Shown: positions 3,720 through 22,511 of the stretch, piece after piece
Layout of the letters: every line of letters starts with the position of its first letter
How positions within the stretch are numbered: the first letter of the stretch is position 1
IMG/VR virus record: IMGVR_UViG_3300038678_000096
Coordinates: 1-45,233 of that record
Strand: one strand, 5' to 3'
DNA length: 45,233 nucleotides
Origin: a virus
Notes under the pieces: model-generated
The model's input: only the letters and a program-made list of their open reading frames with translations
Databases searched by the model: none
What the model was told of the DNA's origin: nothing
Program-made: the position numbers and the translations under genes

Positions 3720-3965
3720 ATGAAAAAGGTAAATTGTCACAACTTGAAAATAGAATCAAAGTATTTTTGTGCTGTTCTTGATGGCTCTAAAAAGTTTGAG
3801 ATTAGATTTGATGATAGAGATTATAACGAAGGTGATTTTATTGTATTACATGAATTCATCAATACTAATTACACAGGCAGGACCATAGAAAAGAAAATTG
3901 GATTTATAACGGATTACGAGCAAAAGCAATGTTACATAGTATTTAGCCTTTTGGATATCAGTTAA
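3720..3965 (+). CDS. DUF3850 / ASCH-PUA-like small protein (81 aa)
   Basis: The sequence follows the DUF3850 pattern well: an N-terminal LKIESKYFCAVLDGSKKFEIR (residues 9-29), then DDRDYNEGD (31-39), and a strand pair ending with YIVFSLL. DUF3850 is related to the ASCH/PUA fold that binds RNA or modified bases. The length of 81 matches the family. The exact role is unknown; it would be cytoplasmic and nucleic-acid associated. The gene's stop codon lies inside the 34-bp linker repeat at 3957-3990. Confidence 0.8.
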   Translation: MKKVNCHNLKIESKYFCAVLDGSKKFEIRFDDRDYNEGDFIVLHEFINTNYTGRTIEKKIGFITDYEQKQCYIVFSLLDIS

Positions 3966-3990
3966 CACATAACACTAAACAAATAGGATA
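3957..3990 (+). repeat. Intergenic linker repeat L, copy A
   Basis: 34 bp are identical to 4907-4940. The repeat includes the TAA stop of the upstream gene and the AGGATA ribosome-binding leader of the downstream gene. Confidence 0.93.
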
Positions 3991-3997
3991 AGTAAAG

Positions 3998-4138
3998 ATG
4001 ATTCATTACATAGCACATTTATTAGGATGGAATACAGGGCTTGTCATAACTAAATTTGATGATAATGATAATTTATGGGTAGCCTTTCAATGTTCAGGCT
4101 GTGGAAAAATTACCGGTAAGCATAAAACTAGTTCTTAA
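3998..4138 (+). CDS. Small CxxC protein (46 aa)
   Basis: This 46-residue ORF starts with ATG at 3998 after the AGGATAAGTAAAG leader. It has a hydrophobic N-terminus (MIHYIAHLLGW) and a single CSGCGK pair near residues 34-39, resembling half of a zinc ribbon. It ends inside the next linker copy. Function unknown. Confidence 0.6.
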   Translation: MIHYIAHLLGWNTGLVITKFDDNDNLWVAFQCSGCGKITGKHKTSS

Positions 4139-4165
4139 CACTAAACAAATAGGATAGAGAAATGA
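4136..4165 (+). repeat. Intergenic linker repeat L, copy B
   Basis: 30 bp are identical to 4920-4949, spanning the stop of 3998-4138 and the SD and start codon of the methyltransferase. Confidence 0.93.
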
Positions 4166-4941
4166 TGAAGAAACTTAGAGTCCTGGACTTGTTCTCAGGA
4201 ATAGGTGGCTTTAGTTTAGGATTAGAAAGTACCAGTGGGTTTGAAACTGCTGCTTTCTGTGAATTCGATAAGCACGCCAGGTTAGTTTTAAATAAACATT
4301 GGCCTAAAATTAAAATACATGAAGATGTGAGGTGTTTAGATGGAAACGAATACAGAGGATCAATTGACGTTGTTTGCGGAGGATTCCCATGCCAAGATTT
4401 GTCAGTCGCAGGTAAAAAGAAAGGTATTACCGAAGGTGAAAGATCGAACTTATACACCGAAATGTTGCGAATTATTAGCGAGTGTTTGCCACGATACGCA
4501 ATCTTTGAAAACGTCACAGGTTTGCTTACTGGAGAATCAGGACGATGGTTTGCTAAGTTTCTCTATGACTTGGCCTCGGTCGGGTATGATGCGGAATGGC
4601 ACTGCATACCAGCTTCCGAACTTGGCGCGAACCATCACAGAGATCGGGCTTGGGTTGTTGCCTACCCCAACTTGCAGCGATGCGAAGGGAGCACCAAAGA
4701 ACAGGTATTGGGGGAGCCAAGATTACAGATCGAATTTGTGCGAAGCTTTGAGAGATGGCCCACTAGACAAGATATACCCGCACCCCGTTCTATTGGAGCG
4801 GCTGATGGGCTTTCCCGAAGGTTGGACAGAATTACCAGATTAGGAAATGCAGTTGTTCCAGGTATACCGAAAATAATAGGCGAGGCAATATTAAAATACG
4901 AATCCGATCAGTTAACACATAACACTAAACAAATAGGATAG
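4162..4941 (+). CDS. DNA (cytosine-5)-methyltransferase (259 aa)
   Basis: This is a C5 cytosine methyltransferase that uses S-adenosylmethionine to methylate cytosine in phage DNA, most likely as protection from host restriction. Family motifs appear in order: I DLFSGIGGF (9-17, AdoMet binding), IV GGFPCQDLS with catalytic Cys77, VI ENV (116-118), VIII HHRDRAW (158-164) and X RLGNAVVP (226-233). At 259 residues it is shorter than typical enzymes because the target-recognition region (about 170-215) is short. The target sequence cannot be read. An unusual feature is that a 167-codon ORF with its own SD (4340-4843) is nested within it in another frame. Confidence 0.95.
   Translation: MMKKLRVLDLFSGIGGFSLGLESTSGFETAAFCEFDKHARLVLNKHWPKIKIHEDVRCLDGNEYRGSIDVVCGGFPCQDLSVAGKKKGITEGERSNLYTEMLRIISECLPRYAIFENVTGLLTGESGRWFAKFLYDLASVGYDAEWHCIPASELGANHHRDRAWVVAYPNLQRCEGSTKEQVLGEPRLQIEFVRSFERWPTRQDIPAPRSIGAADGLSRRLDRITRLGNAVVPGIPKIIGEAILKYESDQLTHNTKQIG
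4340..4843 (+). CDS. Overprinted ORF nested inside the methyltransferase gene (167 aa)
   Basis: This open frame lies wholly inside 4162-4941 in another frame. It has an ATG preceded by GAGGTG with a 5-nt spacer. The product does not look like a random shadow: it starts TEDQLTLFAEDS, then has TWPRSGMMRNGTAYQLP, GLLPTPTCSDAKGA and an LMGFPEGWTELP end. From memory, these strings recur in phage proteins found next to or overlapping Dcm genes, some standing alone. Both frames would then be under selection. The function is unknown; it may be a methyltransferase partner or target-recognition element. Confidence 0.6.
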   Translation: METNTEDQLTLFAEDSHAKICQSQVKRKVLPKVKDRTYTPKCCELLASVCHDTQSLKTSQVCLLENQDDGLLSFSMTWPRSGMMRNGTAYQLPNLARTITEIGLGLLPTPTCSDAKGAPKNRYWGSQDYRSNLCEALRDGPLDKIYPHPVLLERLMGFPEGWTELPD

Positions 4942-16669: not shown

Positions 16670-16792
16670 ATGAAGATACTGATTGAGTTTAAAGATTTAC
16701 ACGATAAAGTTAAAAAATATGCTAATGATAATTGCGAAGGTAATTTTTCTTTGGCTGTTAGAGAGTTAATTAGAAAAGGACTATCTAAATGA
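16670..16792 (+). CDS. RHH-like regulator of the NAD cassette (40 aa)
   Basis: This 40-residue ORF has SD AAGGAT and a four-base ATGA overlap with the PRPP-synthetase-like gene. A strand (KILIEF) and two helices (KDLHDKVKKYANDN; LAVRELIRKGL) match a ribbon-helix-helix layout. It is a paralogue of 6607-6762, sharing YANDN-x-x-GNF-x-x-AVR-x-L-x-x-KGL. It probably binds the palindrome over its own -10 box and so controls the two enzyme genes. Confidence 0.7.
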   Translation: MKILIEFKDLHDKVKKYANDNCEGNFSLAVRELIRKGLSK

Positions 16793-17613
16793 GTATTTAT
16801 ATATTAAGTGGCTTTGATAGGTTTGATGTTGATTTTATAAAGTTCTCTGATGGTGCTGAAATATGCGAGTTAAAGATATTTCCAAACAATAAAGCAAATA
16901 TCGTTTTAGATGTTGATAACTGTAATGTTGATTTGGTTAGGCTTATGCTTGTTAAGGATGCACTAGATAATTTAGGTGTTGAACACATAACGTTAACTAT
17001 GTCTTACATTCCAAACGCAAGAGCAGACAGACGATTTAGTAAGAATCAATCGCAATCTTTAAAGGTTTTTTGCAATGTCATTAACTCGTTAAATTTCAAA
17101 GAAGTTCATGTTAGCGATCCGCACTCTGATGTTTCAACTGCGTTATTGAATAACGTTAAGGTTAACGATCAAGTTAACTGTTTCATGCAGAAAAAACCAC
17201 AAATAGATAAAATATCTAATGACTATGTTTTTTGCTCTCCTGACTTGGGGGCCACAAAGAAAACATTCGATCTATCAATGAAAACAGGTATCGATTTAAT
17301 TCAAGCAGTTAAAATCAGAGATATTAAAACCGGAAATATCATTAAATGTGATGCTCAATGTGAAAACCTAAAAGGTAAGGACGTTGTTATTGTTGATGAT
17401 ATCGCTGATGGCGGAGCGTCTTTTATTTATCTTGCAGAAAAGTTAAAAGCTAAAGGCGCGGGTAAAATTATATTATTTGTTACACACGGTATTTTTTCAA
17501 AAGGCTTGGCGCCGTTAGTAGGTAAAGTTGATTATATATTCACGTATAACCTAATGGAAAAATTTATAAACAATCGAGATATAGAATTATTTAACAATAA
17601 ACAAGGGGAATAG
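16789..17613 (+). CDS. Ribose-phosphate pyrophosphokinase-like enzyme (274 aa), candidate ADPR-PP synthetase
   Basis: This is a PRPP-synthetase homologue with PNARADRR (75-82, matching the family's ARQDRK region), SDPHSD (109-114, catalytic metal region), SPDLGATKK (150-158) and the PRPP loop VDDIADGGAS (202-211). It is shorter (274) than bacterial Prs (about 315). Prs transfers pyrophosphate from ATP to ribose-5-phosphate. In phage NARP1-type systems a homologue acts on ADP-ribose to give ADPR-pyrophosphate. The pairing with a NAMPT homologue two bases downstream, with no NMN adenylyltransferase in the genome, makes the second role attractive but unproven. Confidence 0.9.
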   Translation: MSIYILSGFDRFDVDFIKFSDGAEICELKIFPNNKANIVLDVDNCNVDLVRLMLVKDALDNLGVEHITLTMSYIPNARADRRFSKNQSQSLKVFCNVINSLNFKEVHVSDPHSDVSTALLNNVKVNDQVNCFMQKKPQIDKISNDYVFCSPDLGATKKTFDLSMKTGIDLIQAVKIRDIKTGNIIKCDAQCENLKGKDVVIVDDIADGGASFIYLAEKLKAKGAGKIILFVTHGIFSKGLAPLVGKVDYIFTYNLMEKFINNRDIELFNNKQGE

Positions 17614-17614
17614 A

Positions 17615-19090
17615 ATGGAGTTTTTAGCACCGCTAATGAAAGATGCATACAAGGTATTTCACAAATCAGCATACAAGCCAGGAGTTACACATGTTTATAG
17701 TAACTTCACAAATAGATTTAATACTCACAGCAACATGCCAAACAATGCAGAGGTTTTATTTGTTGGCTTACAGTATTTTATTTTAGATGTATTAATAGAA
17801 AGATGGAATGATACATTTTTCAATGTTGATAAAGATATTGCTGTAAATGAATATTCAAGAGTTGTTAATGCAATGTTGGGTAAGGTTATTGCTGTTGATC
17901 ACATTGAAGCGCTGCACGACCTTCAGTATTTACCATTAGAAATTAAAGCAGTACCAGAGGGTACATTAGTTCCTTATGGCGTGCCTAGCCTAAGTATTGT
18001 CAATACTGTATCTGGTTTCGGCTGGTTAACAAATATGATTGAAACTGTTATGAGTGCGGAAATTTGGCCTGTATGCACAAGCGCAACAACGGCATTAGCT
18101 TATCGTAAGCGATTCGAACAAGAGTCATCACTTGATAAGGATATGATCCCTTTTATGGGTCATGATTTTAGCTATCGTGGAATGTTTGGTACTCAAGCTG
18201 CTGCAATGTCTGGATTCGGTCATTTATGCTCGTTTGCTGGTTCTGATGTTATTCCCGCGGCATTATTTGCTGAAAAGTATTACGGAGCAAAGATTGATAA
18301 AGAACTTGTGTTTGCTTCTGTTGATGCTACTGAACACAGCGTTCAATGCTCATATGGTAATGATGGTGAGTTAGATTCGTTATTACATTTGATAACCAAC
18401 GTTACACCAACAGGAATTATTTCTATAGTTTCTGATACGTGGGACTTCTGGAAACTTGTAGGCGAATATTTGCCAGCAATAAAAGACACCATCATGAATC
18501 GTGAAGGTACGGTTGTCATTCGTCCAGATAGCGGTGATCCTGTTGATATTTTATGTGGCATATCATCAAATGATTCAGCTAAATACTTACAAGCAACTGA
18601 ATTAGAGCGTAAAGGTTTGATTGAATGCTTATGGGATATCTTCGGCGGCACAGAAAAAAATGGACTTAAGTTATTAGATAGTCATATTGGCGCTATTTAT
18701 GGTGATAGCATTACACTAGAACGTCAAGATTTGATTATTAACAAATTAGTAGCTAAAGGATTTGTTCCTAACGTTGTGCTCGGTATTGGCTCTTATACTT
18801 ACCAGTATGTAACTCGTGATACCCATGGTTCAGCTATGAAAGCTACAGATATTCAATTTGGCGCAGGTAATCACCAGCCAATATTTAAAGATCCGAAAAC
18901 TGATAGTAGTAAAAAATCAGCTAAAGGATTATTAAGAGTTTGCAGGAATGCCGATGAATCTTTGTACTTAATGGATTCTGTCCATCCTGATGATGAAGGC
19001 GGTGAATTAAAAACTGTATTTAAAGACGGTAAATTAACACGTAAAACTAGCCTTAATAAAATACGTAAATTAATTAACGATTCGATATAA
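17615..19090 (+). CDS. nadV: Nicotinamide phosphoribosyltransferase family enzyme (491 aa), candidate nicotinamide ADPR transferase
   Basis: This is a full-length NAMPT/NadV homologue: HDFSYRG (183-189, nicotinamide site), TEHS (239-242) with His241 matching the catalytic histidine of NAMPT, RPDSGDP (303-309), GDSI and GIGSYTYQYVTRD. NAMPT joins nicotinamide and PRPP to make NMN. In NARP1 the homologue joins nicotinamide to ADPR-PP, giving NAD+ directly. It ends 28 nt before a strong terminator. The symbol is for the family; which of the two reactions it performs cannot be decided by reading. It acts in the cytoplasm. Confidence 0.93.
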   Translation: MEFLAPLMKDAYKVFHKSAYKPGVTHVYSNFTNRFNTHSNMPNNAEVLFVGLQYFILDVLIERWNDTFFNVDKDIAVNEYSRVVNAMLGKVIAVDHIEALHDLQYLPLEIKAVPEGTLVPYGVPSLSIVNTVSGFGWLTNMIETVMSAEIWPVCTSATTALAYRKRFEQESSLDKDMIPFMGHDFSYRGMFGTQAAAMSGFGHLCSFAGSDVIPAALFAEKYYGAKIDKELVFASVDATEHSVQCSYGNDGELDSLLHLITNVTPTGIISIVSDTWDFWKLVGEYLPAIKDTIMNREGTVVIRPDSGDPVDILCGISSNDSAKYLQATELERKGLIECLWDIFGGTEKNGLKLLDSHIGAIYGDSITLERQDLIINKLVAKGFVPNVVLGIGSYTYQYVTRDTHGSAMKATDIQFGAGNHQPIFKDPKTDSSKKSAKGLLRVCRNADESLYLMDSVHPDDEGGELKTVFKDGKLTRKTSLNKIRKLINDSI

Positions 19091-21422: not shown

Positions 21423-21839
21423 TTAGTTAATTACGCTAAATGTGATGCTAAGGATATGTATAAAGTGAGTATCATTTTGCTGCATACCTGCTAATGATGT
21501 GTTTTTAATTCTAAGTGATTGACCACCAAAAGAAAGAGTTAAGCCTTTGGCAAATCCTGTTTGATAAACTCCAGCTATTGTAAGCCCTGACCATTTAGCA
21601 CCTTCTTCAGCTTTCGGGGTGTTTACGTTTATCTGATAAATACCAAATTGAATATCGCTTGAATCATCGCTAATTCCAATACTTTCATCATCACCGTAAA
21701 GCGGCATTTCTTGAATATATGTTTCGCTAGGTTTTTTCGTATACTCTTCACCATCAGGAACCAATAAGTAAGAATTATCATTCGATATAGTTTGAGCGTT
21801 ATCTAATAATGCTTTTGCTATGTTAAATTTATTGATCAT
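21423..21839 (-). CDS. Tail terminator / DUF4128-like protein (138 aa)
   Basis: An N-terminal helix (NKFNIAKALLDNAQTI), a YLLVPDGEEY region, FGIYQINVNTP and GAKWSGLTIAGVYQTGFAKG are as in lambda gpU-like or DUF4128 tail-completion proteins. It is upstream of the tail tube gene and is separated from the HK97-gp10-like gene by an inserted homing endonuclease gene. It would cap the tail and join it to the head. Confidence 0.65.
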   Translation of the reverse strand: MINKFNIAKALLDNAQTISNDNSYLLVPDGEEYTKKPSETYIQEMPLYGDDESIGISDDSSDIQFGIYQINVNTPKAEEGAKWSGLTIAGVYQTGFAKGLTLSFGGQSLRIKNTSLAGMQQNDTHFIHILSITFSVIN

Positions 21840-22471
21840 AATGAAATACCTCTAGCTCTACATAATTCTTTTGCATGATTTACCAATCCTGTTTTAACCC
21901 TTTTGTCACTCTGCGTTAAAGCTAATTCAATTAAATATGAGTGTTTTTCTTTTATGTAAGCATTACTAGCATCTTCAGCATTATCAAAATAACCAAGAGC
22001 AATCTTCTTACCGCCTTTTCTTATTGATGCGACAAAGGCGTTATCCCTCTTGTTAAAGTAAACACCTTGAGGAAAGTCACCGCGACTTTTCTCATTAGAT
22101 AGGATGGTTGCATTTATATTGCCATCAACGAACACGCAAAGATCAGGGTGATATATTTTATTTTTGTATTTTATTATATCTTTATCTAGTTCTTTTTCTT
22201 TCCAGTCTTGCGTTTTCATCCAAGAGTAGAAATTAGAGAATGTTAGCCAGTCATAGCAAACACCACATTCAGAATAAGATGGGTTTTGCTTATGGTATTT
22301 TCCTGAATAACATCTTTTAAGTATGTTTTTCCAAGTTTTATATATTTCACACCGCTTTTGTTTTCCGTTTATATTTGGTGAAACTATATATTTCGCGTCA
22401 TTAATCCCTATTCCGTAAACTGGCTTTCTAAGCGCTAAAGATATTGCGCTTGCTGGTATTTCTATAAACAT
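21836..22471 (-). CDS. HNH-type homing endonuclease with AP2 DNA-binding domain (211 aa)
   Basis: Residues 35-120 follow the phage HNH/AP2 homing-endonuclease pattern: an IYKTWKNILKRCYSGKYH start, YSECGVCYDWLTFSNFYSWM, LDKDIIKYKNKIYHPDLCVF and VDGNINATI. Residues about 140-185 are an AP2-like domain (GVYFNKRDNAFVASI ... GYFDNAEDASNAYIKEK). The start is chosen at 22471 (SD GAGGT) rather than 22498. It lies free-standing in the connector/tail block and probably spreads by cutting phages that lack it. It overlaps 21423-21839 by 4 bases. Confidence 0.88.
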   Translation of the reverse strand: MFIEIPASAISLALRKPVYGIGINDAKYIVSPNINGKQKRCEIYKTWKNILKRCYSGKYHKQNPSYSECGVCYDWLTFSNFYSWMKTQDWKEKELDKDIIKYKNKIYHPDLCVFVDGNINATILSNEKSRGDFPQGVYFNKRDNAFVASIRKGGKKIALGYFDNAEDASNAYIKEKHSYLIELALTQSDKRVKTGLVNHAKELCRARGISL

Positions 22472-22511
22472 AATAATTACCTCATAGTAGGTTGCCATAG
22501 CTAAAAATATT

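Follow-up and report, generated by a model that had tools for sequence, protein, structure and literature searches.

The C5-cytosine methyltransferases M.EcoHK31I, with the target YGGCCR, and M.AquI, with the target CYCGRG, are the closest described systems to the locus considered here. For M.EcoHK31I, Lee et al. are said to have reported in 1995 that a different frame of the alpha gene contains the open reading frame (ORF) of the beta subunit, with polypeptides of 309 and 176 amino acids. The large subunit of this enzyme holds motifs I–VIII and X and the predicted target-recognition domain, which leaves only motif IX to the small subunit, while M.AquI is a two-subunit C5-methyltransferase with motifs IX–X in its small subunit (PMC3404938).

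The locus lies in a stretch of viral DNA of 45,233 nucleotides (IMG/VR record IMGVR_UViG_3300038678_000096), which was analysed as a whole and is referred to as the window. It comprises a methyltransferase ORF of 259 codons, the product of which we call alpha, and, entirely within it and in its +1 frame, an ATG-initiated ORF of 167 codons encoding beta. Judged from the sequence, we propose with a probability of roughly 0.87 that the two nested frames encode one heterodimeric C5-cytosine methyltransferase with an M.EcoHK31I-like organisation, in which beta would be the motif-IX subunit.

Reading frames and motifs of the locus

The nested reading frame is real and above chance. When the codons of the outer gene were shuffled synonymously 20,000 times, the longest open stretch in the +1 frame had a median of 55 codons and reached at least 167 codons at a frequency of 0.00015. 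Both the length of the ORF and the GAGGTG with its 5-nt spacer, to which an earlier note on this DNA had drawn attention, stand. A Shine-Dalgarno (SD) sequence together with an ATG is enriched in the beta frame of relatives (58 of 98, compared with 25.6 expected). The features of the locus are compiled in Table 1.

Table 1. Features of the nested methyltransferase locus (positions in the window)
Feature	Position	Strand	Basis
Alpha, C5-cytosine methyltransferase large subunit (predicted), 259 aa	4162..4941	+	PF00145, phrog_363, AlphaFold2 model
Beta, 167 aa, nested in alpha's +1 frame	4340..4843	+	phrog_1008; conservation beyond alpha; nested-pair census
Shine-Dalgarno-like GAGGTG for nested ORF, 5-nt spacer to ATG	4329..4334	+	sequence
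In-frame TAG abutting nested ATG, bounds ORF	4337..4339	+	sequence
Alpha motif I, DLFSGIGG, SAM binding	4186..4209	+	sequence; canonical alignment
Alpha motif IV, GGFPCQDLS, catalytic Cys	4378..4404	+	sequence; canonical alignment
Alpha motif VI, ENV	4507..4515	+	sequence; canonical alignment
Alpha motif VIII, RDR	4639..4647	+	sequence; canonical alignment
Alpha motif X, LGNAVVPGIPKIIGEAIL, begins at beta's end	4840..4893	+	relatives census; C-terminal helix in model
Beta motif IX-like PVLLERLMGFP	4784..4816	+	residue conservation; motif census
Beta conserved block FSMTWPRSGMMRNGTAYQLP...LLPTP, overlaps alpha up to motif VIII	4559..4669	+	identity 0.60 vs null 0.32, median z 4.56
Stretch where alpha and beta both vary, possible region of target recognition	4670..4774	+	beta 0.185 vs null 0.120, z 0.81; alpha residues 171–230 low pLDDT

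Alpha carries motifs I, IV, VI and VIII with the catalytic PCQ of a C5-cytosine methyltransferase and matches the PHROG family phrog_363. Its match to the Pfam model PF00145 (3.8e-45) covers profile positions 2–167 of 324 only, and its hhalign alignment with six canonical C5 enzymes (100%) stops just past motif VIII. Motif IX is absent from the window alpha, while motif X is present near its C-terminus; among the non-redundant relatives, motif X is found in 97/98 alpha and 0/98 beta proteins. The single-chain form of the enzyme, with motifs IX and X in one polypeptide, is therefore not what the window encodes, as X lies in alpha and a IX-like motif only in beta. In the AlphaFold2 model of alpha (pLDDT 83), which aligns with M.HhaI at Z 25.4 over 228 residues, the C-terminal helix (residues 234–258) is confident, and residues 171–230, between motifs VIII and X, have low pLDDT.

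A sequence like the motif missing from alpha is recognisable near the end of beta, where PVLLERLMGFP reproduces the P, L, G, F, P spacing of the canonical TPRECxRLQGFP. Residues P149, E153, M156, G157 and P159 of beta are each conserved at 0.91–0.98, compared with 0.24–0.48 under the null model. A strict motif IX pattern (P.{5}L.GFP) occurs in 68/98 beta and 0/98 alpha proteins, a relaxed one in 85/98 and 3/98, respectively. Using hhalign, the IX-like motif of beta was placed onto LTPRECxRLQGFPD of canonical enzymes, albeit weakly (probability 1.6%, P 0.031). The earlier note had taken the host frame to keep all C5-methyltransferase motifs and beta to be overprinted within a complete enzyme; given the truncated PF00145 match and the count of strict motif IX in alpha, the first does not hold and the second is not supported, since motif IX is missing from the host frame and is supplied by the nested product.

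The PHROG family phrog_1008, annotated as "DNA methyltransferase", matches the window beta at 2.4e-18 and all 81 of the 81 beta members tested. Pfam and NCBIfam, including the Pfam C5 model, gave no meaningful match to the window product or to these 81 members, and a PDB sequence search with beta gave no match, hence, no solved relative was found. Modelled alone, beta reaches a mean pLDDT of 67.5, with values of 88–94 only from about residue 111, which would fit a protein that needs its partner chain for folding. Foldseek and VIA-align returned no PDB chains for this low-confidence model, which, given its poor quality, is no sign of a new fold. Between motifs VIII and IX, both frames are variable, and this stretch is a possible target-recognition region.

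Relatives and the placement of motif IX

Searching with beta (tblastn) matched 59 phage records and 6 plasmids, and scans of viral contigs yielded 80 loci with beta and 80 with alpha. Together with the phrog_1008 match, the phage records bear out the claim that strings in the nested product recur in phages. An alignment of 81 beta members proved too diverse for scanning genomes, and a 13-member alignment, used for bacterial genomes instead, gave 14 loci; a DNA search of E. coli genomes gave no match. After removal of repeats, the architecture of the window, in which frame 0 encodes motifs I–VIII and X and a single +1 ORF combines the beta block with motif IX, is shared by about 175 loci of phages, plasmids and bacteria. 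The profiles for this census derive from the viral loci, so that its independent part consists of the bacterial, annotated-phage and PFR2-found sets. Loci fetched by alpha alone had beta in the +1 frame in 78/79 cases and the full architecture in 77/79; in one of the 79, the beta block and motif IX are in the +1 frame on separate ORFs, and in one, motif IX was not detected. A nested two-frame arrangement, known from a bacterial enzyme, is thus shown here to be common in phages.

Annotation of these loci is uneven. RefSeq lists gp63 of Paenibacillus phage Lily as "DNA methyltransferase; g62 internal gene", while in other records (e.g., SG4, BX788P2 and an Acinetobacter plasmid) the outer gene is annotated and beta is not a separate gene. 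A literature search on nested or overlapping phage methyltransferase genes found nothing specific.

Motif IX is located in the +1 frame in most loci, in the frame of alpha in 14 loci, and in the +1 frame together with motif X in a few. To the fused relatives, where the frame of alpha itself encodes motif IX, belong L066, L067, L184, L190 and Propionibacterium phage PFR2 with its kin; for the three that were scanned, the match to the Pfam C5 model (324 positions) extends almost to its end (L184, 2–319; L066, 1–314; PFR2, 20–312). In the mycobacteriophages Firecracker and Artemis2UCLA, motif VIII is the last one in alpha, and both IX and X are found in beta. These fused and re-split variants tie the motif IX of beta to the same enzyme as alpha. 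A lack of homologues outside overlapping contexts had been named as evidence against a second protein; homologous sequence with motif IX is present in the alpha frame of the fused relatives, and such a search is unsuited to beta, because its partner is the overlapping gene itself. In five loci with IX in alpha's frame (L066, L067, L184, L190 and L175), a beta-like block with PTPTASD repeats is partly open in the +1 frame.

Selection on the overlap and rival readings

For the 98 relatives, the alpha protein of each was kept fixed, its synonymous codons were shuffled, and the identity of the resulting beta to that of the window was scored. The median identity was 0.40 as observed and 0.23 after shuffling; the median z was 6.0, with 95% of relatives above 3. 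This constraint is unevenly distributed along beta. Residues 1–73 show modest constraint beyond alpha (0.32 vs. 0.23, z 2.16), followed by the conserved block at residues 74–110 (0.60 vs. 0.32), residues 111–145 (0.19 vs. 0.12), and residues 146–167 with motif IX (0.47 vs. 0.20).

In the reverse test, with beta fixed, the median z over the 98 relatives was 7.9. In the 5' part of the overlap, alpha shows strong conservation (0.58 vs. 0.27), but in the 3' part its conservation hardly exceeds what beta demands (0.206 vs. 0.184); therefore, both proteins make use of the 5' half, and constraint on the 3' half comes mainly from beta. Of the earlier idea that two constrained proteins share the same 504 bp, the constraint on both frames stands; it is not uniform along the overlap, given the values for the 3' half of alpha.

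Among the rival readings, programmed ribosomal frameshifting would have a +1 shift near motif VIII join motifs I–VIII to the motif IX of the beta frame in a single polypeptide. The order of motifs along the DNA—I–VIII in frame 0, IX in +1, X in frame 0—is the one that frameshifts would read, and in Firecracker and Artemis2UCLA a single frameshift would yield a full I–X chain. In the window, however, the inclusion of motif X needs two opposite shifts, and residues 74–110 of beta, most of which precede any useful shift site, show constraint in excess of that from alpha; for these two reasons, we regard frameshifting as less likely. Moreover, SD and ATG stand right after an in-frame stop in the window and are enriched in relatives, so that this reading is, overall, highly improbable.

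A slimmer chance still is given to beta being an independent protein with another function (e.g., anti-restriction or regulation), with alpha active alone. The missing solved relative, the missing Pfam and NCBIfam matches and the block at residues 74–110, which has no assigned role, would leave room for it. Yet, the motif IX that alpha lacks is present in beta, fused relatives hold IX in the frame of alpha and match Pfam nearly to the end, and an overlap of beta with alpha is seen in nearly all of the loci examined.

That the +1 frame is a shadow ORF, open and apparently conserved solely through the protein constraint on alpha, would agree with the N-terminal beta profile matching the +1 frame of ordinary enzymes, but is hardly credible, considering that the excess identity remains with alpha fixed, that about 5 beta-frame stops per gene are expected and 27 were seen across all 98 genes, and that canonical enzymes lack the motif IX half in their +1 frame. 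The profile matches (24–53 bits) come from L169, L172 and L173, and imply that part of the beta similarity is a by-product of alpha. As a sole criterion, the N-terminal profile was therefore rejected, and the motif IX half was used, for which z ranged from -1.0 to 2.1 in six canonical single-chain enzymes as controls and from 2.6 to 4.1 in nine independent annotated or bacterial positives.

L169, L172 and L173, from phages of Streptococcus and Lactobacillus, are ordinary methyltransferases of the single-chain type. Their +1 frame is stop-free across the region matching residues 1–110 of beta, where 3–6 stops are expected, and L173 has a z of 3.0 in the synonymous-shuffle test; possibly, the open frame is a relic of a nested ancestor.

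Proposed enzyme, neighbourhood and known systems

Since beta supplies the motif IX missing from alpha, the two frames most likely represent two subunits of one enzyme. In the heterodimer that we propose, the outer ORF would give rise to alpha, comprising the catalytic, SAM-binding domain with motifs I–VIII and X. Ribosomes initiating at the internal SD/ATG on the same mRNA would read the +1 frame and produce beta, which would contribute motif IX together with the small domain that contacts DNA, in part or as a whole. Upon assembly, alpha and beta would form the equivalent of a single-chain enzyme with methylation activity, whose role for the phage is likely the modification of its own DNA.

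Nested two-frame C5-methyltransferases may constitute a large family, in phages and bacteria, whose conserved motifs move between frames, with splitting and fusion brought about by frameshift mutation inside one gene and a different frame dominating in either half of the overlap; to this tentative extension, we give slightly less than even odds. Long same-strand overlaps are normally rare, but common in phage methyltransferases, and the proposed reason is that the two frames are two parts of an enzyme. Several annotated records keep only alpha; hence, a recoded clone of the annotated gene would be expected to give an incomplete enzyme. The arrangement offers a natural system for measuring the shared constraint of two frames and is useful for following the splitting and fusion of enzymes.

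In the neighbourhood, a 34-nt sequence occurs exactly twice, at 3957–3990 and 4907–4940, flanking the methyltransferase gene and spanning gene ends plus the leader of the next gene; its 19-nt core, ACACTAAACAAATAGGATA, has a third copy at 4138 (region 4123–4156). The repeat could mark an exchangeable gene cassette. A small DUF3850/ASCH-domain protein is encoded upstream of the methyltransferase (3720–3965). Further away, genes for a ribose-phosphate pyrophosphokinase-like protein and a nicotinamide/nicotinate phosphoribosyltransferase adjoin (16789–19090), a pair which we take to resemble those by which phages reconstitute NAD+ against NAD-depleting defence. A protein encoded on the minus strand within the block of structural genes (21836–22498) has a sub-threshold AP2-domain match and is possibly a homing endonuclease.

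Compared with known systems, the likeness to M.EcoHK31I extends to the equal split, i.e., a large subunit with motifs I–VIII and X lacking IX and a small one with IX, as matched by the distribution of motifs, and to the nesting of the small-subunit ORF, which uses another frame of the gene for the large subunit, as is reported for M.EcoHK31I. Unlike that system, the window alpha is shorter (259 amino acids), the gene is located in a phage, and no restriction enzyme gene was noticed in an unsystematic look at its surroundings. Further, the recognition domain of M.EcoHK31I is predicted in the large subunit, whereas in the window either chain is possible. Annotations relating to phrog_1008, which matches beta, and to Lily gp63, annotated as an internal gene of gp62, come without a mechanism. 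The predicted fold of alpha is that of M.HhaI, in which, however, motif IX and the recognition domain are in the same chain. With M.AquI, the window would share a C5-methyltransferase that comes naturally in two chains; it differs in keeping motif X in alpha, while M.AquI has both IX and X in its small subunit, and it is the split in Firecracker and Artemis2UCLA that resembles M.AquI.
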